A stretch of DNA of 58,987 nt, taken from positions 1 to 58,987 of the forward strand of contig NZ_AP025469.1 in assembly GCF_024347355.1 (NCBI RefSeq). Reading direction: 5' to 3'. Below are positions 3,365-57,788 of the stretch, one piece after another. Position numbers and translations under genes: made by a program. The DNA comes from Vibrio chagasii. Its GTDB lineage: Bacteria > Pseudomonadota > Gammaproteobacteria > Enterobacterales > Vibrionaceae. Numbering within the stretch: position 1 is the first letter of the stretch; each line of letters opens with the position of its first letter. Under the pieces are notes generated by a model that searched no databases, was not told where the DNA came from, and saw only the letters and a program-made list of their open reading frames with translations.

Positions 3365-3438
3365 GTGAGTAGGTGAGTATATCCTACTTAGGTTTAGGCT
3401 CTGTGATGGCAGACCAAGTGAATTGGAATAGTGAAGCT

Positions 3439-32397: not shown

Positions 32398-32598
32398 GCA
32401 CTTATAGCTGTATTTTTCAAGTTCCATTGAGAACAATATATTTAGTTATAGTGCTTCAGAAATCGTTTCAATCAGTCTTTCAAAAAACCACATCATCCAA
32501 TCACTCACATACAACCTTATTTCAACAAAAACTACCAACGACCAAATACCGCTCAACCTCGTTGCCAGCGGTATTTGGCATTCCTTGAGGAAAATCCA

Positions 32599-35500
32599 AT
32601 GCTTTCAATCAGCCCCCTCAAATCTGCCTCTGGCGCAGCAAAATACTACCTTGGCGAAGAAAATCCTAAAGACCTTCCTGACGTCACCCTTGAGAAAGGA
32701 GACGGTGATAATTATTACCTAAAAGAGGCAGACCAGCCTGAAACCACTTTTTGGTATGGGAAATTGGCAGATGAGGTCAATTTAGCGGGAAAGCCGGTAG
32801 AAAAAGAGACCTTAGAGTCTGTCCTTTCTGGCCATCTTGGCCAAGAAACGATTAAGGGCAAACGAAGCAATCATAAGTCGGGGTTCGACCTGACTTTTTC
32901 AGCACCAAAGTCCGTCAGCCTCTTGGCTTTAGCGGGCGGTGAGACTCAATTGATTGACGCTCACAACGAAGCAGTCAAGTTTGCGCTCACAGAAATAGAG
33001 AAAGACGTTGCTCAAGTGAAAGTGACCCATGAGAAAGGCGTCCAGGAGTACGAAAACACGGACGCCATGATGTTTGCAGTGATCCGCCATAAAACCAGCC
33101 GTGAAAATGACATGCAGCTCCACTCTCACGCCCTCGCCGCCAATATGACGCGTGATCAAGAGGGAGACTTACGCGCGTTATCATCGTGCCTCAAGCAAAA
33201 AGGAGGGGTGATTAATGGATCGGGTGAACGCATCTATAACTTTCAAAAATATTACACCTCACTGTACCAAAGCCACCTTGCCAAAAGCGCAGAAAACCTC
33301 GGTTTCAGTATGCGTGGGGTCGGAAATGGCCAGTTTGAAGTTGTTGGCGTACCTGAATCCCTTATTGATGCCTTTTCCACGAGAAAAAAGCAGATCGACC
33401 AAAAAGCATTGGATTTCGGTAATACTCAAACAGCAAGGGATACGGCTGCACTCGATACACGCAAAGCCAAAACCTATCACAGTCATGAAACACTCAATCA
33501 CCAATGGCAAACCAAGATCCAAGAGCACGGGCATGAGCCTACTCAGTTAGTTTCTCTGGCAAAGCGTGCTTCAACTGAACGTGTCGGCCCATCAACACAA
33601 GAAGCCAAGGCAGCAATCCATCGCGCCGTTGAACATTTGGGACAATATAAAACCACCTTGCACATTGAAAAAATCATCGAGATCGCAGCCGCTGATTTCA
33701 CTGTCGGTAACACGCAATTGAATGCTCTAGATTTAAAGCAAGCCTCCGATGAGCTTATCAAAAGCGGCCAGTTAATTGCGCTCCAAGACAAAGGTCAATA
33801 CACATCAAAAGCCCTACTCGATAATGAGCGCGCACTTATGGATGCCACTCTAGGCCGTGCTCACAACATGAGAACCCACGTGAATCCGAGTGTACTCAAT
33901 CAACTCAAGGCTTCTCACAAGCAACAACAAATTCTCACCGATGTGTACCAGTCAACCAAACAATTTCACATCGTGAACGTTCACGGCGACTCAAAACCGA
34001 TGGCCCAGCACTTACTGAATCTCGGCAACCATAGCCATAAACGGGTTCACTTGGTTTCACCCAACGCCAGGGAGAAACAAAACAGCATGGAAAGCGTTCA
34101 ACGAAAAAGCCACACTTTAAGCGCCTGGGTCAGCCAACTGTTCAGCTCGGAGTATCGTCATACCACGCACAGCTTGTTGAACGGTGACTTACCCCTGACC
34201 AACAAAGACGTATTGCTTATCGATGAAGCCAATAAACTGAGTGCCAATGAATTGCTGGGACTCACCGAAAAAGCCAAGCAATCGAACAGTAAAGTGGTGA
34301 TGCTCAATCGCGTTACGAACCGACAAGGCTTTAAAGCGCACAATGCCATCGAGCTCTACCGTAAGGGCCATGTTGAGAGTCACACCTGGATAAATGGGAA
34401 AAGCCAAGACAGCCAAGTGAACCTTCATGACAATGATACGCAACGCTTGGCTCGCGTGTATGCTGACCTGACAGACAAGGATCAGACTCAAGTATTAGCC
34501 ACCTCTGGCGTTGAACAACGGCGTCTGACCGAAGCTATAAGGACGCAGCTAAAAAACACCCACGCCCTTTCTCGCATCGAGACCACCCTCTTCACTCAAG
34601 TTCCTCACTTTCTCTCTAAAGCGCAACAACCACTCGTTCAACATTACAAGCCAGGCATGATACTCACCCAATGGGATAACAAGCAGCCCCAACGCTTTGT
34701 CATCGCCAGCATCGATAAAGAGAGCAATACCATGACCGCACTTCGCCAAAAAGATGGGCAGAGCATTCACTTTGATCCATCCACCTCTGAGTTTAAAAAT
34801 AGAAACATGCAACTGACTAAGCCTGAGAGTTTGAATATTGCAGTGGGTGAACGCATCAAAGCCGCTAGCCATCATAAAGCCGCCGGCCTAACCGCACACC
34901 AAAGCTATCGTGTCAAAGCGCTCGATAAAGATACCATCACATTAGACCATCAGGGCCAAACAAAAACCCTCCCCCTCACCGCCCTCAAGGATGCCCCCCT
35001 GAACTACGACTACGTCCATACGGCCAGTCATATCCAATCAAAATCGCATACTTTGCTTTCAGCCAAAGCGTTCACTTTGTCAAAACCACTGCTCACAGAG
35101 CTGACAGAAAAAAGCGGGCGCATCGATATCTTTACCGACAATATGGAGAAAGCGCATCATGCACTCGGCAAAACCCAGGTCACTCCGTCAGCTATTGAGC
35201 GAGTGATGACACCGAACCCGGTCAACGACCGCTATTTAAATGGTCGTACTGCAAACGAACTCAAGCAGGACGTCAATGCGGCCCTGTCCGCCCTCTCCCG
35301 AGAGCAAAGCACTCCCATAATAGAAAAGGCCGTGAGCTTTGCGCTTAACCATCTCTCAGAGCGAGAAGCCGCCTTTAGTCAAAAAGCGCTGGTGATCGAG
35401 GCCGTGCGTTACGCATTTGAAGAAGCCGGCACATCGGTCAGTAAATCCCATATTGAGGCGGAGCTGGCCAAACGCAGCGATACCTTATCCGCGCATTATA

Positions 35501-38373
35501 GCGATGGCACGCGATGGACAACGCAGACCGCGCTAGACATCGAAAAACACATCCTAAGGAACATTGATCAAGGTAAGCACCAGCATACGCCTTTTGCATC
35601 AGCAAAACAGGTTGAGCAGTATCTTGCCGAAAAGCCCAGACTCACAGAGGGACAAAAAAGCAGCGTCACGCTCATTTCAACCACAAAAGACAGTTTTGTG
35701 GCTATTCAAGGCTTAGCGGGCACGGGTAAATCCACCATGCTCGAATCCAATATTGAACTTATTCAATCAGTAAAAGCTGTTAACCAGGAGAAAGCACAAA
35801 CGGTCATTGGCCTAGCACCAACCCACGCGGCCGTATCAGAACTAGAAAGTAAGGGCGTCAAAGCGCAGACCTTAGAAAGTTTATTAACCGAACTACGCCA
35901 GGGAAACCGTCAACCGAGTGATTACCAGGGTAACCTCTTCTTCTTAGATGAAAGCTCGATGGTCAGCAATAAGCAGGCCAAAGAGTTCACCGATCTCATT
36001 CTGGCCAGTCAATCCAAAGCCGTTCTTTTAGGGGACAAAGAACAGTTGCTGTCACTCAGTGCCGGTAAGCCATTTGAACTAGCGATGAGTCAAGGCCGAA
36101 TCGATAGCGCAGAGATGACCGACATTGTTCGTCAGCAAAACGACACACTTCTCAACGCGGCGCAAAACACCATTGACAAGCAACCAGACAGTGCGCTTGA
36201 TAAGCTCCAGAAACAGGCCCCCGACACTCAAGGAAAAACCCAGCACGTTATTTCAACACTCGATGAGCATGCCAAAGATAAACGCCAAGCGCAGTTGGAA
36301 GCGACTGCCAAACTGTCTTACGTTGTGGCCAAAGATTACTTAGAGCGGACACCAGAGACGCGCGACAATACTCTTATCATCGCCTACACCAACATTGAAC
36401 GTGATGAGATTGCCCAGCACATTCGCGGTGGCCTCATCAAAAACGGGGAGCTAGGTAAAGAGAACATCGTGGCGACACGCCTTCGCTCCGTGGGCGCAAC
36501 AGGCGAAGAGCTCTCCACCATGATGCCTTATCAAAAAGGCTTAGTATTAAGTACTAAGCCAGGGGAATACGCGACAATTACCGGTGTTGACTCAGAGCAT
36601 GGCATCGTGACACTGCAAAATGAGAAAACGGGTAAGACGGCCACTTTCTTGCCTCGAAACCGTGACCACACGTTTACGACTCTGTTTTCCGTGGCTGAAA
36701 AGCCACTCTCAACCGGTGATAAGATCGTAACGCGCTTCACCGATAAAACACGTGATATCAAAGCGAACGTCGAATACCGCATCACCCAAGCAACCTCCGA
36801 AGCCATCCTGGCACAATCACAGGCGGGCCAAACCCTGACTATCAACCCTTCGACCCTGCAAGATGGGCATTGGGATTACGCCTATAGCCGTACAGCGGAT
36901 ATGGCCCAGGGGTCAACCTATCCACACGTCATCACTGCGATTAAGAGTAAAGGGAGTTTGACCAATCTTAGACGTGCCGGTATCGATGTTACCCGTGCAA
37001 GCCAGCACATACGTCTCTATACCGATAACACTGAGCACCTGGTCAAAACCTGGCTATCCAAAGAAAGCCATAAATCGAGCGCGTTGGAAACCATAGAGCA
37101 AACGCCACCCACAAATACCGTGTATTTTAACCGCAATGCGCTGCCCCATGAGGACACGCGCTTTCAAAACTCCAATGGTGATTTTGATTATCAAAAATTC
37201 AAGAACCATATTAATGAGACCCTCCCTAAATATACAGAGAGCCTAGCGAAAGCATTATTAGGGACACCAAACATGAGTAAGTCGGATAGAGATTATCTGA
37301 CCTTCGGAATAGGTCAATCGGCCATAAAAGTAAGTTTAACGGGCTCCCACCGTGGTTATTTCAAAGATTACACAACGGGAGAAAAAGGCTCACTCGTTAA
37401 CCTCATAATGAGTCACAAAGACATTGGATATAAGGAAGCGATGAACATGGCAAACAGTATGATCAATGAGCCTAATAAACACCAATTATCAGAAAACCCT
37501 AATCACGATAAATTGATAAAGACCACGCCAAGACACATCGCACAATTTGAAGAAAGAGCCAAGGATTATATAAAACAGAGTCAACCAATCAACAACTCTT
37601 TAGCGCAGTCTTATCTGAATAAGTTGGGAATAAATAACATTGAGAATGAGCATGTTAAATATCACCCCTCGGTATACTCTTCTGAAGACAAAGCCCTTCA
37701 CCCTGCTATGCTGACAAATATCCACGACAAAAATGGAGAAACGAAAGCCGTTGAAATCACATATCTAGACTTGAACGGAAATAAAGATAATACCCTCGAT
37801 ATTAACCCAAGAGTATTGGGAACAAAATCGAAGCAATTTACGAAATTCCACGAAGGTGAACAGTTAAACGCAACAATAATTAGCACATCTATTGAGCAAT
37901 CCTATTTAATTAGAGAAGAGACTCAAAGCAAAATCGACATTATTAATGTCAACCATAAGAATGACATTCAAAATCTATCCACCGATGAATTACGGCAAAA
38001 TGTAATTATTGTCTTGAGTCAAGGCAATCAAGAGTTGAACCCGAACAACATTGAAAAAATTATGGAGAACTTTAATGGAAGAGACATTACTTTTATTGCA
38101 GAAGAAGATCTGCATCGCGATATTGAATCGTGTATAAAGCAACTGGATAGAGCTTCTAGCATCTCGGAAGAAGAAATTCCTGATGATATAAAACATGAAC
38201 AGTCGGAACGACTAGATAGCTTTGAATTAAATGAAAGAAAAGAGCAAGACAGTCAATCATTAGATTATTTCGACGACAGAAACATAAGTCAACAAAAGGA
38301 ATCTATCGCACTAGAAAAAGATAGAGACACCGATTATGAAGACAGAGAAATAGATAGAGAACTGGAACGATAA
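32599..38373 (+). CDS. traI: TraI relaxase-helicase with C-terminal primase-like extension
   Basis: A 1924-aa MOB-F relaxase (F TraI 1756). ATG 32599 follows TTGAGGAAAA; the TTG eight codons earlier is unlikely. Catalytic tyrosines are Tyr16-Tyr17. FDLTFSAPKSVSLLALAGG and QLHSHALAANMTR (about residue 172) form the HUH three-histidine site. A degenerate helicase copy (VLLIDEANKL, ~535) precedes the active RecD-like helicase with Walker A GLAGTGKST (~1037) and Walker B LFFLDESSM (~1114). From residue ~1514 the DNA becomes AT-rich and encodes a segment resembling primase/Toprim regions (GYFKDYTTGEKGSLVNLIMS). Confidence 0.95.
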   Translation: MLSISPLKSASGAAKYYLGEENPKDLPDVTLEKGDGDNYYLKEADQPETTFWYGKLADEVNLAGKPVEKETLESVLSGHLGQETIKGKRSNHKSGFDLTFSAPKSVSLLALAGGETQLIDAHNEAVKFALTEIEKDVAQVKVTHEKGVQEYENTDAMMFAVIRHKTSRENDMQLHSHALAANMTRDQEGDLRALSSCLKQKGGVINGSGERIYNFQKYYTSLYQSHLAKSAENLGFSMRGVGNGQFEVVGVPESLIDAFSTRKKQIDQKALDFGNTQTARDTAALDTRKAKTYHSHETLNHQWQTKIQEHGHEPTQLVSLAKRASTERVGPSTQEAKAAIHRAVEHLGQYKTTLHIEKIIEIAAADFTVGNTQLNALDLKQASDELIKSGQLIALQDKGQYTSKALLDNERALMDATLGRAHNMRTHVNPSVLNQLKASHKQQQILTDVYQSTKQFHIVNVHGDSKPMAQHLLNLGNHSHKRVHLVSPNAREKQNSMESVQRKSHTLSAWVSQLFSSEYRHTTHSLLNGDLPLTNKDVLLIDEANKLSANELLGLTEKAKQSNSKVVMLNRVTNRQGFKAHNAIELYRKGHVESHTWINGKSQDSQVNLHDNDTQRLARVYADLTDKDQTQVLATSGVEQRRLTEAIRTQLKNTHALSRIETTLFTQVPHFLSKAQQPLVQHYKPGMILTQWDNKQPQRFVIASIDKESNTMTALRQKDGQSIHFDPSTSEFKNRNMQLTKPESLNIAVGERIKAASHHKAAGLTAHQSYRVKALDKDTITLDHQGQTKTLPLTALKDAPLNYDYVHTASHIQSKSHTLLSAKAFTLSKPLLTELTEKSGRIDIFTDNMEKAHHALGKTQVTPSAIERVMTPNPVNDRYLNGRTANELKQDVNAALSALSREQSTPIIEKAVSFALNHLSEREAAFSQKALVIEAVRYAFEEAGTSVSKSHIEAELAKRSDTLSAHYSDGTRWTTQTALDIEKHILRNIDQGKHQHTPFASAKQVEQYLAEKPRLTEGQKSSVTLISTTKDSFVAIQGLAGTGKSTMLESNIELIQSVKAVNQEKAQTVIGLAPTHAAVSELESKGVKAQTLESLLTELRQGNRQPSDYQGNLFFLDESSMVSNKQAKEFTDLILASQSKAVLLGDKEQLLSLSAGKPFELAMSQGRIDSAEMTDIVRQQNDTLLNAAQNTIDKQPDSALDKLQKQAPDTQGKTQHVISTLDEHAKDKRQAQLEATAKLSYVVAKDYLERTPETRDNTLIIAYTNIERDEIAQHIRGGLIKNGELGKENIVATRLRSVGATGEELSTMMPYQKGLVLSTKPGEYATITGVDSEHGIVTLQNEKTGKTATFLPRNRDHTFTTLFSVAEKPLSTGDKIVTRFTDKTRDIKANVEYRITQATSEAILAQSQAGQTLTINPSTLQDGHWDYAYSRTADMAQGSTYPHVITAIKSKGSLTNLRRAGIDVTRASQHIRLYTDNTEHLVKTWLSKESHKSSALETIEQTPPTNTVYFNRNALPHEDTRFQNSNGDFDYQKFKNHINETLPKYTESLAKALLGTPNMSKSDRDYLTFGIGQSAIKVSLTGSHRGYFKDYTTGEKGSLVNLIMSHKDIGYKEAMNMANSMINEPNKHQLSENPNHDKLIKTTPRHIAQFEERAKDYIKQSQPINNSLAQSYLNKLGINNIENEHVKYHPSVYSSEDKALHPAMLTNIHDKNGETKAVEITYLDLNGNKDNTLDINPRVLGTKSKQFTKFHEGEQLNATIISTSIEQSYLIREETQSKIDIINVNHKNDIQNLSTDELRQNVIIVLSQGNQELNPNNIEKIMENFNGRDITFIAEEDLHRDIESCIKQLDRASSISEEEIPDDIKHEQSERLDSFELNERKEQDSQSLDYFDDRNISQQKESIALEKDRDTDYEDREIDRELER

Positions 38374-38775: not shown

Positions 38776-38976
38776 CTCAATGAGCTTCAATGATAGTTCA
38801 TTGAACCTTCAATGAAAAGTTTTATCCCAAACCTCACGAATCCAATAAGACAGTGGCTTAAATGAACATTCAATGAAATCTCAATAAAATCTCAATGTAA
38901 TACCCTCCAGCCCTTTCTGGATTTGGGATCAATGACCATTCATTGAATATACATATTTTTTCATTGAAAATTTAAC
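38776..38976. repeat. TCAATGA/TCATTGA repeat array at oriT
   Basis: About eight to ten full or partial copies of TCAATGA or its complement lie between about 38776 and 38976 (for example TTCAATGA, TTCATTGA and CATTGAA), directly upstream of the minus-strand relaxosome gene. It is probably the binding array of that protein for oriT and autoregulation. The DNA is AT-rich, with one CCAG/CTGG hairpin near 38908. Confidence 0.65.
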
Positions 38977-39083: not shown

Positions 39084-39120
39084 AAATCGAATTTCGATTT
39101 AGCGTAGGGTGTGGTGACTT
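39084..39120 (+). other. oriT: oriT nic region
   Basis: The perfect inverted repeat AAATCGA-ATT-TCGATTT (39084-39100) is followed at once by AGCGTAGGGTGTGGTGACTT. The F plasmid nic region has the same layout: an inverted repeat, then GCGTGGGGTGT/GGTGC. By analogy the cut lies between T39112 and G39113 on the plus strand, so transfer would lead with the 39-49 kb genes and end with the tra operon. Neighbouring traI is MOB-F, which agrees. Confidence 0.82.
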
Positions 39121-39315: not shown

Positions 39316-39759
39316 TTATTTAACATTCCGCTGATAATAAACCGATTGGACTTTTTTAATGTATATTTTTCTAGCGCTCTCGGTGTGTTTAGAAAACCCA
39401 GCATTATACGCACCGACACTGTTCCAGTTATAGCCATGACTAGCAAAGTTTGAGCTTAATACCCACGCGCCCAAATGAACATTAAAGCAGGGGTCATAAA
39501 TGTTTGTTTCGTTGATATTAAAATCGGATAACTTATCAAACCAATGAGAATTAATTTGCATCAAGCCAAAATCACGACTGACGACTTGACCAGATTGATT
39601 TTTATTTTCATTGTACGCGTCCGGCTTTAGGCTACTCTCTACCGTAGCTATTGATTTTAAAAGTCTGGGATCGACGTTATAATATCGCCCTGCTTCATCA
39701 AAGCAAAAAGCTTTACTTAAGCACGGAAATAATAAAAGTAGGTAAAATAAGTTTCTCAT
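39316..39759 (-). CDS. Lytic transglycosylase (VirB1/P19-like)
   Basis: A 147-aa secreted protein with a signal peptide (FYLLLLFPCLSKAFCF). The catalytic glutamate is Glu41 in KSIATVESSLKPDAYN, followed by RDFGLMQINSHWF and SVGAYNAGF, the SLT-domain signature. Such enzymes open the peptidoglycan for the transfer apparatus. In F the equivalent (orf169) also lies near oriT. It is the first gene of the leading region. Confidence 0.9.
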   Translation of the reverse strand: MRNLFYLLLLFPCLSKAFCFDEAGRYYNVDPRLLKSIATVESSLKPDAYNENKNQSGQVVSRDFGLMQINSHWFDKLSDFNINETNIYDPCFNVHLGAWVLSSNFASHGYNWNSVGAYNAGFSKHTESARKIYIKKVQSVYYQRNVK

Positions 39760-41593: not shown

Positions 41594-41622
41594 ATTTTAA
41601 AGGTTTAGCTTTAAAAAGTCAA
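41594..41622 (-). promoter_or_regulatory. Leading-region promoter P4
   Basis: -35 TTGACT (41617-41622), 17-bp spacer, -10 TAAAAT (41594-41599), reading leftwards. ATTTCC lies just upstream of the -35, as in the other four. It begins 24 bp downstream of structured element L1 and drives the 52-aa membrane protein. Confidence 0.75.
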
Positions 41623-41645: not shown

Positions 41646-41840
41646 GTTTCGGCCCGAAGGGATAAGCGAAGCGAGACAGCAGAATCAAAGCGCAATAGAA
41701 CAGTAAAGCTACTGCACACCAGACGAACTCTAAGCGCGTAAAGGAGTGTTGCCTGACATATCGCATATGCCAGGCTTAGAATGCGTGAGAATGGCACACA
41801 GCGCCCCCAGGAGCCCAACCGCACCCTGCTAAGCCGAGCG
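41646..41840 (-). repeat. Duplicated structured element L, copy 1
   Basis: A ~195-bp GC-rich element without a convincing gene, resembling 47998-48191. Conserved blocks (CCCGAAGGGATAAGCGAAGC; ACAGTAAAGCTACTGCACAC; CCAGGAGCCCAACCGCACC) alternate with diverged ones. CAGTA-AAGC-TACTG is a hairpin in both. In copy 1 CTAAGC pairs with GCTTAG; in copy 2 one pair changes from A-T to C-G, although a second position becomes mismatched. It sits directly upstream of promoter P4. Confidence 0.7.
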
Positions 41841-41856
41841 AACCTGTAAGCGTGTA

Positions 41857-42243
41857 CTAGATCATACGTTCGCAATACTTAGCTAAAGTATTGGCTTCAT
41901 GTTGAGTTTTACAATCATGCAAGCACTCGCTCCCGCCATCGATGCAGTGTCCGAAAACAGACCAACATTTAACTGGCGTATCTTCTTTAAGATTACTTTC
42001 CAAAAAGGGCTCCAAAGTGATGTCTCCGCCCTGATTTTGGTGTTCAATGCAAAACATTACCTCGATACCATCGTAATCCGTCCAAACAGGCTCAAGCTCT
42101 TTTGGCATGCAATTCCAACCGTTGGCCAAGATATCGCGGATCAGCACATTATCATTTTTAGGGGAGCCTTCGGGTTCTAGCGTCGAAACGCTAGTCGCTG
42201 TTAAGTCATTAGAGACAGTTTGCTTGTCATGCGATGGAAACAT
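41857..42243 (-). CDS. Hypothetical acidic leading-region protein
   Basis: A 128-aa protein with a strong AAAGGAG ribosome binding site. It is clearly acidic (about 22 Asp/Glu to 9 Lys/Arg) and has six cysteines in the C-terminal two thirds. No family recognised. It is inserted between elements L1 and R1 and is preceded by a 103-nt nested hairpin. The acidic character would suit a DNA-mimic antirestriction protein, but no homology is claimed. Confidence 0.65.
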   Translation of the reverse strand: MFPSHDKQTVSNDLTATSVSTLEPEGSPKNDNVLIRDILANGWNCMPKELEPVWTDYDGIEVMFCIEHQNQGGDITLEPFLESNLKEDTPVKCWSVFGHCIDGGSECLHDCKTQHEANTLAKYCERMI

Positions 42244-42286
42244 AGTGGGTTCTCCTTTGTTGTCTGAATATCACTTTCTTTTTCGC

Positions 42287-42389
42287 CTGACTTCTTTTTC
42301 TCAGATTAGTGGTTCTCTTTTGCAATGGCGCGTAGCGGCTTCGCTTTACATTGCAAAAGAGGTTCCGTTCTGAGATATCTAGAAGTCAG
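42287..42389. promoter_or_regulatory. 103-nt nested hairpin upstream of the acidic gene
   Basis: Three successive complementary pairs nest in register: CTGACTTCT (42287-42295)/AGAAGTCAG (42381-42389), CTCAG (42300-42304)/CTGAG (42370-42374) and CTCTTTTGCAATG (42315-42327)/CATTGCAAAAGAG (42349-42361). A GC-rich loop closes it. As single-stranded DNA this would fold into a long interrupted stem like the promoter-mimicking hairpins of F (Frpo). Confidence 0.65.
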
Positions 42390-42934
42390 AGCAGAAATGG
42401 GAAGTGGTATGAGCAAAGGAGACAAGCCACGGTTTCAGCGCATAAAGCATTACTGTCTCTTATGGCGTAGCAGTGAAAGCTCTTGCGTTAAGGATTGTTG
42501 GCCTGGAACTTAGAGCCACAGCAAGCTTGCTTGCTATCAGTGGCTCAAGTTAGCGGTCAGAGGAGCGTAGCGACGGAAAGCCTGGCCGCGAAGCGGCAAC
42601 GCCCAGCTCAATAAAGTCTTTTAAAAAAAGAGGTGAATAAGTAACACAACCTGACACTTAATCTGCTGAAGAATGATCCGGCCCACTCCCCCGACTCAAG
42701 TTGATTAACTTTCCCAAATGTAATCCCACGAAAACGATGAAAAGCCTTAAATCGCTTTTGAACATTTTTTACTGAAGAAATAGCATGAGGTGTTACTTCT
42801 AAGTATCCAGGCCCACAAAATGCAGCTTACTTTGTTGGAGCCTTTGTATATAAAGAATGAAGTTTTGAATTGATATGATGTATTAAGTGTAGAAAAGTGT
42901 GAGCGACGTTAACACGCCGCCCACTTTGTGAAAA
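42390..42934. other. 545-bp intergenic stretch containing element R1
   Basis: It holds R1 (42485-42604). On the minus strand it also has a startless open frame of about 68 codons (about 42830 down to 42615), reading ...VKNVQKRFKAFHRFRGITFG..., which may be a gene remnant. Nothing else is recognised. Confidence 0.4.
42485..42604 (-). repeat. Duplicated structured element R, copy 1
   Basis: 120 bp, identical to 48277-48396 at 117 positions. It folds with GCGTT/AACGC closing the ends, a long inner stem (AACTT, GAGCCAC, AGCAAGC pairing with GCTTGCT, GTGGCTC, AAGTT) and GCCGC-GAA-GCGGC. The three differences fall in loops or bulges. In copy 1 it is separated from L1 by 644 bp carrying a gene. Confidence 0.75.
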
Positions 42935-43195
42935 TTATAGGCTAGGTTCTGGTTGGTAGTCTTTAATGCAAATGTGTTTTAAAGGATTGCCAATGTAAAC
43001 ACATGAAAAATCTTGTAACTGGCTTACGATATGCTCAGCATCGATATTTATGTATAGGGCCAGTTCGTCAGCATACATATGTAATGATACAAGTGTTTCT
43101 TTGTTAGCGATCATACTCATGCAGTCATTCAAAAACGCTCGCTCAATCTTTAGAGATTGAGATAAAAATTGTGCCAGGTCTATTGTCGGTTTCAT
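42935..43195 (-). CDS. Hypothetical leading-region protein
   Basis: 86 aa from ATG 43195 (MKPTIDLAQFLSQSLKIERA...), chosen because AGGAAG lies seven bases upstream. Mostly helical; no family recognised. It follows the 43241 gene on the same strand. Confidence 0.6.
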   Translation of the reverse strand: MKPTIDLAQFLSQSLKIERAFLNDCMSMIANKETLVSLHMYADELALYINIDAEHIVSQLQDFSCVYIGNPLKHICIKDYQPEPSL

Positions 43196-43240
43196 GGATT
43201 TTCTTCCTGAATAGTCTTGTGTATGAATGAACAAGGTAGT

Positions 43241-43516
43241 TCACGGTGCAAGTTCAAAGCTGATCTCAAAAAGTCGAGTATCATAGCGGCAGCACTTAAC
43301 CTCTATTTGTTTGTACCTTCGATATCGATTCACCAACTCTTCATGCAAGTTTATTGCTGAAGATTCATCTGTCATTCTCACGAAAGCGTAACCATCATTC
43401 GCATAGACATATACAATGCAGTCTAGGTACTTAAAATAGTTCGGCTCATTTATAGCAAGCCACTTATGACCGCACCCATAAACAACTTTCTGAAACTGTT
43501 GGTTATTGATACTCAT
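43241..43516 (-). CDS. Hypothetical leading-region protein
   Basis: 91 aa from ATG 43516 (MSINNQQFQKVVYGCGHKWL...), with AAGGAG seven bases before it; the in-frame ATG two codons earlier is too close. Tyrosine-rich alpha/beta pattern (CIVYVYANDGYAFVRM; YKQIEVKCCRYDTRLFEIS). No family recognised. Confidence 0.6.
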   Translation of the reverse strand: MSINNQQFQKVVYGCGHKWLAINEPNYFKYLDCIVYVYANDGYAFVRMTDESSAINLHEELVNRYRRYKQIEVKCCRYDTRLFEISFELAP

Positions 43517-43566
43517 GAACATTCTCCTTGTTCGATAGAGTAGCGGGCCAGTGGCCCGCTAAGGTG

Positions 43567-44631
43567 TTAAGCGGCTATGTCTTTTAGTACTGGTAAAACT
43601 TCACGTACAAAAGCATTTTGGGCGTTCAATGTATGCTTACGAACCCAGGCATAGTTTCTGTGTCGAGAGCACTTAAACGCATTACTTCTTAAAATGCTCC
43701 GCACCTCTTCACTAGGCTTAGTGGTGAAGTGAATTGCAATCTTATTGTCCTCGGTCAATTCGTATTCAATGCCGTTGTCCAGGGAGTCATTGAGTTGATT
43801 TGATTCACGGCCTTCTTCAAGCTTCTTCTGCTCTTTTATGCGTTGCTCCGTTCGCTTGATCTCTTGAGAGCGGTTGGTCAGTGAATAACTGGGAAACGCA
43901 ACAATCTTAGAGGTAATGCGACAAGGTTTAAGCAAAGTGATCGCTGTGTCTTCACAGAGGTCAAATGACGTCTGAAGATCTTTAATTAGTTTGTCGATGT
44001 CATTTTGAGTCGCACCGGCTTTTAACTGGCCCTTGGGATACACTTTGCGCACCATCTTGTTAATGGCTATCCACATTTCTTTTTCTTTGACCAACTGTTC
44101 AAGCTTGGCTTCCAATTGCTGAAGAGCGCTCGCGGAATCACTTTTGATCACAGTGCCATCACCTTCAGGAAGGAGCATTTTTACCGCCCGTTTATAGAGC
44201 TGCTTTTCTCTCTCTGCGATCGCGTCATATTTGTTCATAGCGGAAGCAAGGCGCTTTCTGTTGCGCTCGACGGGAAAATTTGCAGGGCCAGTAATGGCTG
44301 ATGACATACAAGCGGATTCAGCATGTATGTAGGTGATAAAGAGTTGAGCGATTTCTTTTTGAAAGTGTTTATGGATCTCTTCTAAATGTTCTCCACAAAC
44401 CTTCACAATGCCGTTCGCCTTAGCGGTGGTAATGGCCTGGTTCAATTGGACTTTGAAACCTTCACAACGCTCTGCGTAATCGACAACAACAAGAACGCCC
44501 TTGCGTTCAGGGCTGAATGAAGTCGCATGAAATGCGCGTTCAGCAATCGACAAGTCGATAGCGGAAACGTACTGGTTGTGCTCAGGGTGTTTCTGTAGAT
44601 GTTCAGCAAGTAGTTTTTGGCTGTAGTTCAT
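43567..44631 (-). CDS. Hypothetical leading-region coiled-coil protein
   Basis: A 354-aa protein under promoter P1 with the conserved leader. It has a central region with SSAITGPANFPVERNRKRLA, then predicted coiled coils (about 140-195 and 255-280). The C-terminal motif EVRSILRSNAFKCSRHRNYA(W) followed by NAQNAF resembles a motif seen in mobile-element proteins (a lysine/arginine-rich GFRWSP...AWQR pattern). Function unknown. Its own strong promoter marks it as an early gene. Confidence 0.7.
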   Translation of the reverse strand: MNYSQKLLAEHLQKHPEHNQYVSAIDLSIAERAFHATSFSPERKGVLVVVDYAERCEGFKVQLNQAITTAKANGIVKVCGEHLEEIHKHFQKEIAQLFITYIHAESACMSSAITGPANFPVERNRKRLASAMNKYDAIAEREKQLYKRAVKMLLPEGDGTVIKSDSASALQQLEAKLEQLVKEKEMWIAINKMVRKVYPKGQLKAGATQNDIDKLIKDLQTSFDLCEDTAITLLKPCRITSKIVAFPSYSLTNRSQEIKRTEQRIKEQKKLEEGRESNQLNDSLDNGIEYELTEDNKIAIHFTTKPSEEVRSILRSNAFKCSRHRNYAWVRKHTLNAQNAFVREVLPVLKDIAA

Positions 44632-44638
44632 GTTGAAA

Positions 44639-44672
44639 TCTCCAAAGTAGCGGCGGTATTGCCTTGATTTCG
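44639..44672 (-). promoter_or_regulatory. Conserved leading-region leader, downstream of P1
   Basis: Minus strand: GAAATCAAGGCAATACC then GCCGCTACTTTGGAGA, ending seven bases before ATG 44631. It is shared almost exactly with 46323-46356 and 47416-47449, including the GGAGA ribosome binding site. Confidence 0.75.
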
Positions 44673-44678
44673 TGGTTA

Positions 44679-44707
44679 ATTTTACTCCCGCCCCAATATA
44701 AAGTCAA
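44679..44707 (-). promoter_or_regulatory. Leading-region promoter P1
   Basis: -35 TTGACT (44702-44707), 17-bp spacer, -10 TAAAAT (44679-44684), preceded by AAATTTCCTTA. Same core as P2-P5. It drives the 354-aa gene. Confidence 0.8.
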
Positions 44708-44765
44708 TAAGGAAATTTAAATCAAATCAAAGAAAAAGGGCCATCAAACCTGGCCCCTTTGGGTA

Positions 44766-46316
44766 CTATGCTGCTACACATTCACCATGAAGTTTTTTCA
44801 ACTGGCTTCTTAGTGAGTTGATGCGGTTCAATGCTCGCCAATCACTCTCAATGTTGTCATTCGAGGCTGGAACTAAACACTGTTTAATGTTCTTCAAAAA
44901 CTCGATGGATGCTTGGCCATCCTCTTCGGCAAATTCCCCGACTACTTTGTAGATTTTCTCGGCGGCATCTTCTATCTGCTCTTCCGTCACTGTGTCGCTC
45001 CATTTCTTACCCACAACGGTTGCGATACTCGCTGCGTCTTCAGTAGTGAAGTCTTGACCCATTTGACCAAACACAACTTCTACCTCTTCCGGTTCTGGTT
45101 CTGGTTCTGGTTGTTGAATAACTTTCGGTTGCTCGAACTTACCAAAATATTGCTTTTCTAATTGCGCTTGATCTGTATTGAGAGGACAGCCAACGGCCAA
45201 TTGGAGCTTGTTCGCTGTCAGCATTACGCCTGTGCTATCGGGTTTCATCTTTCCGCTGACTTGATCGAATGCTCGATCTTTAAAGTCATAGCTCCAACGA
45301 TACACATCCAATTCATCCAACTTGGACAGGTCTATTTTGTCGAAGGAAATGAAGTTATTAAGGATGTTTTTTCCGGCTAGTGCGAGCGCCTTAAGAAAAA
45401 CGGCACTCGTGTTTAAATGCGTTTCACGATGGTCCCTTGCATCATTCAATCCAAAGGTCAACGCACTCCAACCAGTATGACGGCTGAATGTCATCCAAAA
45501 CTCTTTAGCGATTTCTTTCTGTTCCGTCGTTAGCTCTTCTTTAGCTTGCTTGTTAGTTAGGCCCAGGAAGCTTTGAGTTGCATCTCGAATGGTCTTCAGT
45601 GAGAAGTAATTAAGGTTTGAACCAGTGATCGCATTGCGCTCAAAATCAACCATATCCTTAAAGCACGTAAGTTCTGTTGCCAGCTCAACGGCGAATTTGC
45701 TCATTGGATCTCGGTGGTCATAAGCAATCGAAATAGCCGCAGGTGGCTTGGCCAAGTTGTTGTTGATGTCACTAAACCCAATTTGGCGGTCAGTTAGTGA
45801 CAAATCAGTGTAAGCCATAAAAGGCACCTGGATTGTGCTCAAATCAAGGTCTTTCAATTCTGGATCAGTCGCAATTTTTTTAATCGCGTACGCAGAGCCA
45901 GAAGAGCGGTGTTGGCCATCAAACAATTTAATGGTGCTATCCATTGAAACGACTAACACGCCTTGAGACAGCATATTAACATCATCGGTACGTTTGACAT
46001 TGAGCACCTCATAAACATCAAAAAACGTCGCGGGCTTACTATTGACTGGGGTGTCGATCAAACCCACTACACTTGGGAAGATATAAAAGCGATTTTTCTT
46101 CACATTATCAATTAGATAATCGCCAAATTTTTCAGCTCTCTTATTGTTAACGGCACGCTGTGAGCGATCTAGAGTCGACCCCTTATCGTCCAGGTTTAGC
46201 ATTTTGACCAGCACCTTAAGCGGTACATTGATCTGGAAGAACTGAGTGTGCTGAAGGCCACGAGTAGCAGGGAAGCGGTAGCAAAACGGTTCGTTAAGTA
46301 GCATTTTATCTAACAT
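44766..46316 (-). CDS. DGQHR-domain (DndB-like) protein
   Basis: 516 aa from ATG 46316, chosen because it follows the conserved leader's GGAGA. The DGQHR signature is in IKLFDGQHRSSG (133-137), followed by the helical region typical of DndB/DGQHR proteins (DINNNLAKPPAAISIAYDHR). A PEPEPEPE linker near residue 400 precedes an acidic C-terminal domain. DndB regulates DNA phosphorothioation, and DGQHR proteins are common on mobile elements. Without dndCDE here, it may modulate a host DNA-modification or defence system after entry; that is inference. Confidence 0.82.
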   Translation of the reverse strand: MLDKMLLNEPFCYRFPATRGLQHTQFFQINVPLKVLVKMLNLDDKGSTLDRSQRAVNNKRAEKFGDYLIDNVKKNRFYIFPSVVGLIDTPVNSKPATFFDVYEVLNVKRTDDVNMLSQGVLVVSMDSTIKLFDGQHRSSGSAYAIKKIATDPELKDLDLSTIQVPFMAYTDLSLTDRQIGFSDINNNLAKPPAAISIAYDHRDPMSKFAVELATELTCFKDMVDFERNAITGSNLNYFSLKTIRDATQSFLGLTNKQAKEELTTEQKEIAKEFWMTFSRHTGWSALTFGLNDARDHRETHLNTSAVFLKALALAGKNILNNFISFDKIDLSKLDELDVYRWSYDFKDRAFDQVSGKMKPDSTGVMLTANKLQLAVGCPLNTDQAQLEKQYFGKFEQPKVIQQPEPEPEPEEVEVVFGQMGQDFTTEDAASIATVVGKKWSDTVTEEQIEDAAEKIYKVVGEFAEEDGQASIEFLKNIKQCLVPASNDNIESDWRALNRINSLRSQLKKLHGECVAA

Positions 46317-46322
46317 GGTAAA

Positions 46323-46356
46323 TCTCCAAAGTAGCGGCGGTATTGCCTTGATTTCG
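46323..46356 (-). promoter_or_regulatory. Conserved leading-region leader, downstream of P2
   Basis: Minus strand: GAAATCAAGGCAATACC then GCCGCTACTTTGGAGA, six bases before ATG 46316. It fixes the start of the DGQHR gene. Confidence 0.75.
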
Positions 46357-46362
46357 TTCTTA

Positions 46363-46391
46363 ATTTTAATCCCCACCAACTATAAAGTCAA
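46363..46391 (-). promoter_or_regulatory. Leading-region promoter P2
   Basis: -35 TTGACT (46386-46391), 17-bp spacer, -10 TAAAAT (46363-46368), preceded by AAATTTCCCCA. It drives the DGQHR gene. Confidence 0.8.
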
Positions 46392-46405
46392 TGGGGAAAT
46401 TTACA

Positions 46406-46588
46406 TTAATCTAAAATGGTGACGTCTAAGACCTTAAACCACTCATCCTCAATTCTTGTAATCGCCTTAGCTCTGAGTGGTTCACTAATGGCTCTAACGT
46501 AAAGCTGTAATGTTTCACTGTCTTCAGTTTCAACCAACACCTCAGCGCAATATACTTTTGATATATTTGTTTGATTCATAATGGACAC
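46406..46588 (-). CDS. Hypothetical small protein
   Basis: 60 aa from GTG 46588 (AAAAGGG upstream) or 57 aa from ATG 46579. Sequence ...VYCAEVLVETEDSETLQLYV...; acidic, strand-rich. No family recognised. It follows the 79-aa gene by 12 bp. Confidence 0.5.
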   Translation of the reverse strand: MSIMNQTNISKVYCAEVLVETEDSETLQLYVRAISEPLRAKAITRIEDEWFKVLDVTILD

Positions 46589-46600
46589 TTCGAAACCCTT

Positions 46601-46840
46601 TTAAGCTGGAATGTATTTATGGCTATTTGTCACCCATCCTACGACCTCAGCGCGACTGTTAAGCCCTAGCTTATTCGTTTCAGTAATCACATGGCCCCTA
46701 GCTAAGCCTTGTCTCCAGTACTCCCTGTTTAATTCTGTTTCTGGTAACAAAACCGTCAATTCTATCCAGACTTTCGAATGTCTTTTTCTTGCTTTAACAT
46801 GAGCGGCAATAACTATCGGCTGTTGCATTGAATCGTTCAT
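46601..46840 (-). CDS. Hypothetical small protein
   Basis: 79 aa (MNDSMQQPIVIAAHVKARKR...), a probable small beta-rich protein. No family recognised. The TTTTGCATGCAAAA palindrome lies 14 bp upstream and may be its operator. Confidence 0.55.
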   Translation of the reverse strand: MNDSMQQPIVIAAHVKARKRHSKVWIELTVLLPETELNREYWRQGLARGHVITETNKLGLNSRAEVVGWVTNSHKYIPA

Positions 46841-46853
46841 ATTCTTTTCTCAC

Positions 46854-46867
46854 TTTTGCATGCAAAA
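46854..46867. promoter_or_regulatory. TTTTGCATGCAAAA palindrome
   Basis: A perfect 14-bp palindrome identical to the core at 4172-4193, just upstream of the 79-aa gene and downstream of the 170-aa gene. Confidence 0.55.
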
Positions 46868-46895
46868 TTATGGGCCGCTCTCACGGCCCTCGACC

Positions 46896-47408
46896 TTAGT
46901 AGCACTTTTTCCACTCGATAAAGTCAGAATCGCCCCACTGCGCAGCTTGATATACAGGAGTATTTTCAATCAGAATTTCACACACAAGGCGGCGTAACTC
47001 TTGAAAGTGCGCCCAACTCTTACGGCTGTCACAAGACACCACACCATCCTCGGCACAATGATAAATAAGAAAATCAATTGCTTTCAGGGTTGCAGCAATT
47101 TGCTTGTAATCCCCTTTTGGGCGGTGGTTCGTTGGGGCAACTGTAGGGTCACGACGCTTGTACGATTGAAAGGGTTCAATCTCTTCATGGGGATAACGAA
47201 GACGATAAGCGCGATGGTTGGCCACATGAAATAAACGGATCAAGTTCAGCACACCGTCAGATGGGGAGCCAAAGTATGGCTGTGTGTCCAAAGAAGCCAG
47301 GAAGCCTTTAAGCTTATACGCTCCATGTAACTTGCCAGAAAAAGCAATAGAAGAAAGAGAAGATTTAAGGTGAGCCAGGAAGTCATCACCCACATAAGAA
47401 CATGACAT
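46896..47408 (-). CDS. Hypothetical leading-region protein
   Basis: 170 aa under promoter P3 with the conserved leader. MSCSYVGDDFLAHLKSSLSS...; contains NHRAYRLRYPHEEIEPFQSY and a C-terminal EWKKCY. No family recognised; predominantly helical. Confidence 0.7.
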   Translation of the reverse strand: MSCSYVGDDFLAHLKSSLSSIAFSGKLHGAYKLKGFLASLDTQPYFGSPSDGVLNLIRLFHVANHRAYRLRYPHEEIEPFQSYKRRDPTVAPTNHRPKGDYKQIAATLKAIDFLIYHCAEDGVVSCDSRKSWAHFQELRRLVCEILIENTPVYQAAQWGDSDFIEWKKCY

Positions 47409-47415
47409 ATTGAAT

Positions 47416-47449
47416 TCTCCAAAGTAGCGGCGGTATTGCCTTGATTTCT
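47416..47449 (-). promoter_or_regulatory. Conserved leading-region leader, downstream of P3
   Basis: Minus strand: GAAATCAAGGCAATACC then GCCGCTACTTTGGAGA, seven bases before ATG 47408. Confidence 0.75.
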
Positions 47450-47455
47450 TTGATT

Positions 47456-47484
47456 ATTTTAAGCTTTCACACATAAAAAGTCAA
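47456..47484 (-). promoter_or_regulatory. Leading-region promoter P3
   Basis: -35 TTGACT (47479-47484), 17-bp spacer, -10 TAAAAT (47456-47461), preceded by TAATTTCCTTA. Confidence 0.8.
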
Positions 47485-47496
47485 TAAGGAAATTAA

Positions 47497-47751
47497 CTAA
47501 CAATCAAAATAGAGTTTATCGATATCCTGGTATGGTTGATAACAGTCTAAGCTTTCACCCAAAGCAATAAACCGAGTAACACCTTCTTCCTGATGGCACT
47601 CACCGCCGTTCTTAGAGACGAACTGCTTCAGCTCTTCGACAGCCTCCTGGTAACTGTAAGAACTCTTTCTGAGTGCTTCAGCAAAACCAATCAAGCCTTT
47701 GACCTTACTCACTTCCAGGTGAAGGCTTTCAAAATTCACATTCAGTTTCAT
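47497..47751 (-). CDS. Hypothetical small protein
   Basis: 84 aa (MKLNVNFESLHLEVSKVKGL...), acidic, helical; no family recognised. Its ATG abuts the stop of the 36-aa membrane protein (TAAATG), so translation is probably coupled. Confidence 0.6.
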   Translation of the reverse strand: MKLNVNFESLHLEVSKVKGLIGFAEALRKSSYSYQEAVEELKQFVSKNGGECHQEEGVTRFIALGESLDCYQPYQDIDKLYFDC

Positions 47752-47862
47752 TTACTTACCCATTGACCAGGCAAAAAAACCGATAGTAGCAAAAAGAGAC
47801 ACAACCGAAACGATGACGGTTATCTCAACAATATTTCTTTCAAAGCTTTCAAGTAATTTCAT
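47752..47862 (-). CDS. Small membrane protein, 36 aa
   Basis: MKLLESFERNIVEITVIVSV starts a single-helix protein (helix residues ~12-33). AAAAGGAG lies eight bases before the ATG. It is the first gene after promoter P5, mirroring the 52-aa membrane protein after P4. Function unknown. Confidence 0.6.
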   Translation of the reverse strand: MKLLESFERNIVEITVIVSVVSLFATIGFFAWSMGK

Positions 47863-47948
47863 TTTTGCGCTCCTTTTGGCTGACAGTATAAATAAAGTTT
47901 ACACAATGTATTTCAATCATGCTTTCTCTCTTTTTTGAAATTATGGGC

Positions 47949-47977
47949 ATTTTACTGGCCGATACATAAAAAGTCAA
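47949..47977 (-). promoter_or_regulatory. Leading-region promoter P5
   Basis: -35 TTGACT (47972-47977), 17-bp spacer, -10 TAAAAT (47949-47954), preceded by TATTTCCCTA. Element L2 begins 21 bp upstream. Confidence 0.75.
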
Positions 47978-47997
47978 TAGGGAAATACACTAGCAGA

Positions 47998-48191
47998 TTT
48001 CGACCCGAAGGGATAAGCGAAGCGAGACAGCAGAGCCAACACGCAAAAGAACAGTAAAGCTACTGCACACCAGAGGGACGCTCAGCATGTGAAAATGCGT
48101 TGCCTATGCCATCGCATGCGCCAGGCCGAGACTGCGTGAGGATGAAGTACAGCGCGCCCAGGAGCCCAACCGCACCTTGCTAAGCCGAGCG
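47998..48191 (-). repeat. Duplicated structured element L, copy 2
   Basis: About 195 bp, the counterpart of 41646-41840, directly upstream of promoter P5. In this copy L and R are only ~85 bp apart with no gene between, so L2-R2 (47998-48396) is probably the intact ~400-bp unit. No reading frame is conserved between the copies, which argues for a structural role. Confidence 0.7.
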
Positions 48192-48276
48192 AAGCGACCT
48201 AGGACTGTCATCACTAGATGAACACTCATTGAAACGATAAACCAATGACGACTCACAAGGGTTCACACTAAGAATT

Positions 48277-48396
48277 GCGTTAAGGATTGTTGGCCTGGAA
48301 CTTAGAGCCACAGCAAGCTCGCTTGCTATTAGTGGCTCAAGTTAGCGGTCAGAGGAGCTTAGCGACGGAAAGCCTGGCCGCGAAGCGGCAACGCCC
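48277..48396 (-). repeat. Duplicated structured element R, copy 2
   Basis: 120 bp with three substitutions relative to 42485-42604. The same extended stem and GCCGC-GAA-GCGGC hairpin are present. It lies 22 bp past the stop of the 124-aa gene and upstream of L2 on the minus strand. Confidence 0.75.
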
Positions 48397-54887: not shown

Positions 54888-54971
54888 CTGACGGGGAACG
54901 CTTTGGCGTTCCTGTGTCGGATTTGGGCGATGGACAACTATTCGCTCGTACCTCACGAAAGTTGACCACAC
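54888..54971 (+). repeat. 84-bp structured repeat, copy B
   Basis: Same orientation as copy A; hairpin GGAACGC-TTTG-GCGTTCC. It lies 20 bp past the end of the broken umuC and, with copy C, brackets the umuDC-nuclease segment as an inverted pair. Confidence 0.75.
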
Positions 54972-54990
54972 ACAAATCTAGAATACAGAA

Positions 54991-56239
54991 TCAACACAAT
55001 ATTTGTGGAAGGTCTTTTAGTTTTGTTGTGTATTGAGGTGACAGAAATTCTCTACTCATTTGCCAATGTTGCGTAGTTCCTTGAGCTGCAAGAAAAACAG
55101 CATCACGTCCAAATTTAACATTCAGTGCGTCAAGTGCCTCCATCAGAGCTGGATTTTCTGGTGAAGAGAATAAATCTATCTGCCTTTGCCTATCTGAAAC
55201 CAGTCCAATTGCACCAACGCCAATTTTATAATACTGAACACCGACTCGATATAATCGTTCAGCTATCGATGTGACGGCCGATGTTAATTTAGCTGTGTCA
55301 CTAGTCGGATAATCGAACTGAAGCGTCTCTTTAAAACTTTGAGGAATAGCATCAAAAGGAGACGTATTAGCAAATGCCATTAATATTGAGCACGCACTTT
55401 TTTGAGCCCGAGCTTTCTTGGCCACTGTAGCAACGTGGAACGCTAACGCCTGTTTTAATTCTTCAAGTGTTGTGATCCGTTGGCCCACACTCCGAGTGCT
55501 AAAGATTTGTTGTTTGTCGGCACGGCACTCATCCCAAATTTTGCATGCTTCTCCGTTTAATTCTCTTACTGTTCGCTCTACTTCAACATTAAACGAACGA
55601 CGGGCTTGGTCTGGGGGCAAGTTAGCTAAATCAAGTGCTGTATGTATTCCCATCCATTGCAAACGTTTAACTTCTCCCGATCCCCCAAACTTCAGACACA
55701 GGCTGCATGGCCAAGTAATGCTGTCTCTTCTGCTCAGAATCGATAATACATACTCCTTGTAATCTTTTATCCACTTTGGCACTTCGGTTGGCCATCTTCG
55801 ATAACGTCAAAGTATGGCCAGCACCAAAACATACAGGTAATCGACACTCTTTCCAGACCGTTTGCCTAACTCGTTGTCCAAACGCCTTTAAATCAGTTTC
55901 TACACGATTACAGTGGCGCATATCGAGAAAGCATTCATCAATACTGTAGATGTGACTGTTTGGAGCAAAAGCGGTGATTGTGGCCATCATTTTTGCTGAC
56001 AAGTCAGCATACAAAGCATAGTTCGACGAAAACACGTGAACAGACTGTTGTTCAATCAAACCTTTTTGTTTGAAGTAAGGCTCAAACTTCTTGATACCGG
56101 CTTCTTTTGCCAAACGATTCGCTGCGACGACCGCACCATCATTATTGGATAAGACGATGCAAGGTTGTTGTCGTAAGTCAGGACGAAAGACCTGTTCACA
56201 GGCCACATACATCGCATTGCAGTCAATTAGGGCAAACAC
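54991..56239 (-). pseudogene. umuC: umuC, frameshifted translesion polymerase V subunit
   Basis: The Y-family polymerase gene is split. The first 190 codons (GTG 56239 to the stop at 55667) carry FALIDCNAMYVACEQVFRPD and the catalytic HIYSIDECFLDMR. The frame breaks at VWGIGR. The downstream frame, open to 54991, continues with VKRLQWMGIHTALDLANLPP and a normal C-terminal part. Together they give about 415 aa, the usual UmuC size. One base gained or lost near 55668-55690 explains it, unless it is a sequencing error. It starts in the umuD stop (TAGTG). Confidence 0.85.
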
Positions 56240-56649
56240 TACATGAACTCTGGAAGAGGCTTATGGAGCCTTATAGAGCGTATGACTACCCCTTCAATTG
56301 AAAATGCGTCTTCTGGACGGATAGGGATAGGTGCACAGTTTGAATTCGCAGAGAGCAATAACCGCTGACGAACATCAATGATTTTGCACATGAATGCACC
56401 ATTGAGCGAAACAATGACGGTATCGAGGTGTTGAGCTTGTGGTTTTCTATCAATAACTAATAGATCCCCACTGTAGATCCCAACATTCTCCATGGAATCA
56501 CCGTTTGCATAAGCCAGGTAAGTTGCATTGGGGTTATTCACTAAAATTGAGTCGAGTGATACACCAAGCTCAACGTATTCCGCAGCAGGTGACTCCCAGG
56601 ATGTGAGTGAACAAGACATACTCGTAGGAGATAAGGGGAGGATATTCAT
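56239..56649 (-). CDS. umuD: UmuD-like protein with altered cleavage site
   Basis: 136 aa from ATG 56649. S24 catalytic residues are present: Ser in AYANGDSMENVGIYSGDLLV and Lys in GAFMCKIIDV. The region preceding the catalytic core reads SLTSWESPAAEYVE, whereas E. coli UmuD has CGFPSPAADYVE, so the usual Cys/Ala-Gly cleavage pair is not seen. A LexA box lies upstream. UmuD' normally activates polymerase V; here the partner UmuC is frameshifted. Confidence 0.85.
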   Translation of the reverse strand: MNILPLSPTSMSCSLTSWESPAAEYVELGVSLDSILVNNPNATYLAYANGDSMENVGIYSGDLLVIDRKPQAQHLDTVIVSLNGAFMCKIIDVRQRLLLSANSNCAPIPIRPEDAFSIEGVVIRSIRLHKPLPEFM

Positions 56650-56674
56650 AATCAAAACTCAAAACAAATAATAA

Positions 56675-56690
56675 CTGTATAAATATACAG
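56675..56690. promoter_or_regulatory. LexA box upstream of umuD
   Basis: CTGTATAAATATACAG matches the CTGT-N8-ACAG consensus and is palindromic. It lies 25 bp before the umuD start. It implies SOS induction of umuDC. Confidence 0.88.
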
Positions 56691-56739
56691 TTATTAGTGT
56701 TGTTTGGTCAATGTTTTCAATGGGTGTAGGCTTACAGCT

Positions 56740-57525: not shown

Positions 57526-57704
57526 CAAGTAGTCCTACTGATTTAGGTAGTGCAAGTGAGTGCATATGTGATGTTAGTGCAAATTTTGTAAAGCGCAACT
57601 ATCTAAAGTAGTAATGTTGAAGCCACTCGAAAGGGAATCAATTATGCAGGGTATTTGCCCTGTTTCAGAGCTGGATGAAATATGAGGTCATTAATCTGAT
57701 TTGA

Positions 57705-57788
57705 GTGTGGTGAACTTTCGTGAGGGACGAACGAATAGTTATCCATCGCCCAAATCCGACACAGGAGCGCCTTGGCGTTCCCCGTCAG
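57705..57788 (-). repeat. 84-bp structured repeat, copy C
   Basis: Inverted relative to copies A and B. It ends (plus-strand right side) with GGAGCGCC/GGCGTTCC, the counterpart of the first hairpin with a G-T pair. It lies between two similar terminators. Confidence 0.75.

Follow-up and report, generated by a model that had tools for sequence, protein, structure and literature searches.

The window analysed here, the whole 58,987-nt stretch that opens Vibrio chagasii contig NZ_AP025469.1, carries two pairs of direct repeats, L1/L2 and R1/R2, and the question raised by this locus is whether these act on DNA while it is single-stranded. A first-pass annotation had read both as candidate single-stranded promoters or priming sites comparable to the F plasmid Frpo and single-strand initiation (ssi) sites. 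The duplication itself was confirmed: L1 (41640-41842) and L2 (47991-48193) are 82% identical across 203 nt, R1 (42483-42604) and R2 (48275-48396) are 98% identical across 122 nt (97.5% by blastn), and the two pairs have the same order and orientation at both sites. The candidate promoter, however, is neither R nor L; it is H1, a long imperfect hairpin at 42245-42430 that had been overlooked and that forms the main part of the module. From comparison of sequences and predicted folds, we think it probable that H1 and R1 together constitute a divergent Frpo-type single-stranded-DNA (ssDNA) promoter module that drives leading genes before second-strand synthesis.

The strand on which such a module would act was read from the transfer origin. 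The nic-like core of the origin of transfer, GCGTAGGGTGTGGTG, is present as an exact match on the plus strand at 39102-39116, between the end of a MOBF-type TraI/TrwC relaxase gene (32575-38373, plus strand; PF08751, PF18340) and a lytic transglycosylase (SLT) gene (39316-39759, minus strand; PF01464), the first leading gene, as in F, where an SLT gene occupies the equivalent position. The window closely resembles pFE10 and pTHAF190c_e, two Vibrio plasmids of the MPF_F type. Among the loci compared, the core is exact and on the same strand at the same place in L001, has one to three changes in L002, L003, L005, L007, L010 and L011, and was looked for but not found in L008. In the F plasmid (L004), GGGTGTGGTG, which we take to be F nic, lies at L004 16154-16163 on the minus strand, at the start of the SLT gene on the traM side, and on the strand opposite to the F leading genes. 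Because the nic-like site of the window is on the plus strand, the plus strand is the transferred strand (T-strand) and the leading region extends rightwards from 39.1 kb; the minus-strand genes to the right are therefore the leading genes, with the plus strand as their template. The position of the site also places L and R within the leading region, and H1/R1 lie 3.1-3.5 kb into it, measured from the nic-like site with the SLT gene beside it.

H1 is a 73-pair T-strand hairpin of 186 nt, located between R1 and the start codon of a minus-strand open reading frame (ORF) of 128 aa at 41857-42243. The base of the hairpin meets the Shine-Dalgarno sequence and start codon of this ORF (AAGGAG, then ATG). 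The 242-nt gap that contains H1 (42241-42482) folded far better than shuffled sequence (z -7.1) and preferred the T-strand (z -3.5), and the H1 region holds the lowest-energy 180-nt plus-strand segments of 38001-58800. A profile hidden Markov model (HMM) of the H family matched the window only once, at 42248-42429. No H was found by this HMM at the R2-L2 site, and in the R2 gap the complement folds better than the plus strand (-45.8 vs -41.1). The window thus holds one complete module, not two; the proposal that Frpo-like elements have the right place and strand is well supported for H1/R1, but the proposed number is not. The R2-L2 site is probably either a partial copy or a place that serves the R function alone. 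As to the ORF behind H1, it belongs to no Pfam or NCBIfam family, has one relative in the database (93%) and others in the related plasmids compared (95%), and yielded a structure model without confidence (pLDDT 36.9).

The arrangement recurs in other plasmids. Of 21 gaps between R and the start codon that follows, chosen by hand from annotation, 17 were 242-335 nt long, and most gaps folded into one giant hairpin, which we call H. Shuffle tests were run on 17 of the 21 gaps; the four whose length exceeded 340 nt were skipped, including the R2 gap. The 15 tested gaps with an H match gave T-strand z scores of -3.3 to -7.5, and in 16 of the 17 the preference for the T-strand over the complement exceeded that of shuffled sequences. 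H could be aligned across families (alignment A4, 14 of the 21 gaps) and has a conserved apex, CAA.GGCGC followed by AGCG. The pairs covary: over 71 of them, 154 double-change cells were counted, whereas 500 shuffles averaged 58.9 (sd 6.5) and none reached that count, and 83.3% of cells were paired compared to 40-45% when the structure was slid; the number of pair types was less clear, being reached by 21 of 500 shuffles. Since the structure derives from folding the very rows on which it was scored, the comparison is biased towards it, and two checks were therefore made, with a structure derived from the complement and with H matches in loci outside the H model. On the T-strand, G.T outnumbered A.C by 121 to 48, and by 82 to 53 with the complement-derived structure. 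The H matches outside the model (12, in seven loci) folded with z scores of -2.7 to -7.3; since they were found by similarity to H their folding is not independent, whereas their start-codon layout is.

That layout was consistent. All 12 matches outside the model have an ATG and a Shine-Dalgarno-like sequence 1-13 nt from H, and five of them have R within 300 nt. In a set of 31 H matches, which includes four of these 12, a script placed an opposite-strand ORF at the base of 28, one of which is an apex-only match with a TTG start and not meaningful, leaving 27 with ATG; R lies 48-136 nt beyond H in 24 of the 31. Some loci are near-identical plasmids (the window, L001 and L002; L005/L006 and L010), so that these are not counts of independent cases. 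Plasmids that carry H include MOBF, MOBP (pES100 of Aliivibrio fischeri ES114, which has two H-R modules) and MOBC (IncX1) types, and the genes behind it include some annotated as zincin-like metallopeptidases (named ArdC-like here) and large ParB-like proteins.

The R element looks like an accessory fold. In R1 (plus strand) a closing stem, P1, pairs 42485-42489 with 42598-42602, its arms about 110 nt apart, and encloses a hairpin, P2 (42507-42551). P2 has a fixed geometry in most copies, namely five pairs, one bulged base, seven pairs, a four-base bulge and six pairs, and a small hairpin, outside the pair scoring, often precedes the 3' arm of P1. With one R of each of three plasmids as query, BLAST found 53, 70 and 83 plasmid records, mainly from Vibrio, Shewanella and Photobacterium; Aliivibrio also carries the family, and the listed rows from Salmonella and Acinetobacter are short partial matches. 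A set of 35 rows was reduced to 29 distinct ones, and three rows with E 0.16 or worse were excluded. The covariance model, built on 17 of 28 aligned copies with hairpin variants and outliers omitted, detected R at 32 sites (E <0.001) in 14 of the 17 loci searched, building copies included. Pairing was found in 96.3% of 356 cells compared to 84.7% in shuffles (0 of 500 as high) and 24-41% when the structure was slid along the alignment, and 15 of 23 pairs changed on both sides compared to 4.8 in shuffles, the variation consisting of compensatory changes and indels. RNAalifold returned no pairs for the raw 28-row alignment, which we attribute to misaligned hairpin variants, and a search of 38000-58987 of the window with Rfam covariance models returned nothing at E 1 or below. 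The 27 distinct copies folded with a mean T-strand z of -2.20 (range -4.39 to 0.23); R2 with its flanks, folded as DNA, gave -2.04 on the plus strand and -1.87 on the minus strand. The extended stems announced by the first-pass annotation are therefore real for R, in stability and in covariation.

Two further R-like sequences were seen. One, at L008 3031-3180 in V. tubiashii p57, is below threshold (E 0.16) and probably a real second R of that plasmid because it lies at the right distance from the H at 3285-3459. The other, on a MOBF plasmid from Acinetobacter (L180 2865-3040), shares the R frame (GCGTTAGGGAT ... CCCGAAGGGAACGCCC), which here encloses a long hairpin of another kind, rich in A+T. 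The possibility that R is itself the promoter was rejected: its hairpin arm has no -35/-10 pair by inspection, and the strong fold beside the gene is H. Pattern scans of genome and viral contigs were discarded, the word being too short and the matches in unrelated phyla apparently due to chance, and scoring the R model against 4 and 295 genomes returned nothing but was uninformative, as only 150 or, among the rows listed, 12 of hundreds of candidates per genome were scored.

No such fold was found for L. L2 showed no excess stability over shuffles on the plus (z +1.72) or the minus strand (z +0.16), and six L copies gave a consensus fold of only -7.8 (plus) or -12.3 (minus) kcal/mol, so that L has no support as a folded element; the proposals that L forms stems, folds on one strand and resembles Frpo or ssi sites were accordingly dropped. 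Both L copies lie just upstream of conventional minus-strand promoters of the form TTGACT-17-TAAAAT (10/12 in each case), at 41594-41622 beside L1 and 47949-47977 beside L2, identified from the promoter listing and from repeat D5. Clear L homologues are confined to the two nearest plasmids and, in part, V. tubiashii p48, where an L-like sequence (L009 19906-20044) is found about 0.8 kb upstream of paired genes for a recombinase and SSB; weaker HMM matches were obtained in L013 (E 0.009) and L008 (E 0.06).

The lack of a fold in L, and the near-exclusive Watson-Crick pairing of R (2 G.T in 356 cells), as in inverted repeats of double-stranded DNA (dsDNA), are what would be expected if the repeats were dsDNA sites for protein binding or recombination (partition sites, operators or remnants of an earlier duplication), with the folds as by-products. 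R nevertheless keeps asymmetric bulges and a closing stem with widely separated arms, and H is rich in G.T pairs with a strand bias, neither of which suits dsDNA sites. We consider this explanation very improbable.

BLAST of F Frpo1 and Frpo2 against the window gave no match (best E 0.29), and the homology of H with Frpo rests for this reason on a mosaic intermediate, found in Providencia among SLT, TraM and antirestriction genes. In pairwise comparison the Providencia element matches F Frpo1 (E 3e-13) and Frpo2 (E 6e-12) over 109-138 nt and, further along the same strand, the H apex of Shewanella (E 1.9e-7), A. fischeri (1.8e-7) and the window (2.6e-5). Strand, position, association with leading genes and this sequence bridge all point the same way, so that a Frpo- or ssi-like reading is well supported for the R1 module.

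The mosaic nature of the bridge is the first of several observations that weigh against a Frpo-type promoter. The strand preference of R is weak (T-strand favoured more than in shuffles in 20 of 27 copies, mean z -0.61), so that the claim of folding on one strand survives only in attenuated form. The presumed partners are also found apart: no R was detected near 7 of the 31 H matches and 7 of the 12 outside the model, and R occurs without H beside the nic-like site of L003 (gap z -1.1) and once in L007 (z -3.1). Evidence for sigma-70 boxes in the H arm is at best suggestive. In H1 they would be TTGCAA at 42351-42356 and, after 17 nt, GATATC at 42374-42379, with scores not above those of shuffles, and over 14 copies the sigma-70 match hardly exceeded shuffles (mean z 0.64). 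The H apex motif also recurs in two small ColE1-like plasmids with RNAI that are typed non-mobilizable (L183 209-244 and L184 1988-2023), which points to priming.

This last observation, together with R2 and the L003 copy of R beside the nic-like site, both without H, is what a priming function would predict, in which H and/or R would be ssi sites that recruit primosome, primase or RNA polymerase for second-strand synthesis and the place before genes would be secondary. A site for priming only has no need to end at a start codon, as H does in 27 of 31 and 12 of 12 matches, and we regard priming as an unlikely alternative.

A further difficulty is that in most copies the complementary strand of H, too, is much more stable than shuffled sequence, with z scores down to -6.8, and that the T-strand preference was negative (favouring the T-strand) in only 6 of the 12 H matches outside the model. 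With H just upstream of start codons, the hairpin could instead be a structured 5' mRNA leader, an attenuator or a translational control element, acting as minus-strand RNA. The excess of G.T and G.A over A.C and T.C favours the plus strand, which is not the mRNA, and so does the energy difference in 16 of 17 gaps, even though this holds for just half of the matches outside the model. No leftward sigma-70-like promoter was listed between 42244 and 43347, behind H1, from which such a leader could be transcribed. An mRNA leader thus appears quite improbable.

If H1 and R1 do form an ssDNA promoter module, H would fold upon entry of the single strand, and host RNA polymerase would be recruited to its double-stranded stem, transcribe the 5' arm and continue into the leading gene. 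The resulting transcript may also prime the second strand, and conversion to dsDNA would then remove the hairpin and shut off expression. R might aid H by insulating it or by nucleating its fold, or might serve as a separate priming site.

Several features of the surrounding region were noted in passing. Adjoining the nic-like site, 38786-38960 contains several TTCAATGAA-like repeats, possibly relaxosome protein sites. The leading genes include one for a DGQHR/DndB-like protein (44766-46379; below the DndB equivalog cut-off and above that of the DGQHR domain), relatives of which recur in other leading regions. Five leftward gene starts (40352, 40852, 44629, 46313 and 47406) share a leader that occurs in variant forms around GGCAATACCGCCGCTAC, and three of these starts belong to a 103-nt repeat that carries the promoter TTGACT-17-TAAAAT; a common operator or leader RNA of leading genes is possible. 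Inverted repeats of 91 nt (54888-54978 and 57698-57788, 90% complementary) flank a umuC-like C-terminal piece (54991-55782) and a non-specific endonuclease gene.

How does the module compare with known systems? As with H, Frpo1 and Frpo2 of F lie in the leading region, use the folded T-strand as template and form a long imperfect hairpin upstream of leading genes, and they are present in two copies, as are the repeats here; H is shorter (about 180 nt) than F Frpo. The HMM and the covariance model of R found nothing in F, and direct R homology was therefore rejected, but F has a similar frame, GCGTCAGGGAT...GACGCCC. Only the Acinetobacter relative (pairwise E 0.002-0.006) and a single R from Shewanella (0.03) could be aligned to this frame; the R copies of S. 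baltica, V. alginolyticus and the window could not. A further giant T-strand hairpin lies upstream of the F antirestriction gene (L004 6344-6758; F plasmid 56343-56757) and has a 23-nt apex match to the H of S. baltica. The ssi sequences of ColIb-P9 are dispersed repeats. They are described as Frpo-homologous leading-region sequences in PMC9849209 and are likened to the present elements by description only; according to the same paper, deletion of Frpo1 or Frpo2 abolishes early expression of the downstream leading genes of F.

The leading-region anti-defence islands described in PMC11541004 resemble the window in having the T-strand as template, anti-restriction-type genes and promoter hairpins directly upstream of genes, and the umuC-like piece may mark the end of an island of this type. 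The screen reported there relied on BLAST searches (E 1e-6) that started from known Frpo sequences, supplemented by candidates taken from four islands, and the main text contains neither 'Vibrio' nor 'Shewanella'. None of the titles and abstracts listed in our literature search concerns such elements in these genera, although most subscription papers and supplements fell outside it and a prior description is possible.

Until now, single-stranded promoters have been described in F and in ColIb-like plasmids, with more of them recovered in large screens that looked for similarity to these. The H/R family is defined by structure, lies far from F and has covariation and strand evidence of its own, and would extend early conjugation expression to marine Vibrionaceae and Shewanella plasmids. 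Its profile would serve in the search for genes of leading regions, probably with anti-defence roles, of which the orphan ORF 41857-42243 is an example, and it singles out R as a conserved ssDNA fold with a directly testable role. In conjugative plasmids of marine bacteria, H before leading genes probably lets these be read while the DNA is single-stranded, as in F. More tentatively, Vibrionaceae and Shewanella plasmids could use a two-part ssDNA module composed of H, a promoter hairpin at the start codon, and R, a covarying fold about 50-140 nt further on. R would then be a new kind of conserved fold in ssDNA, recognised by a ligand of its own (polymerase, primosome or SSB), and H, carried by MOBF, MOBP and MOBC plasmids alike, would represent a broad family in which F Frpo is one divergent, mosaic branch.

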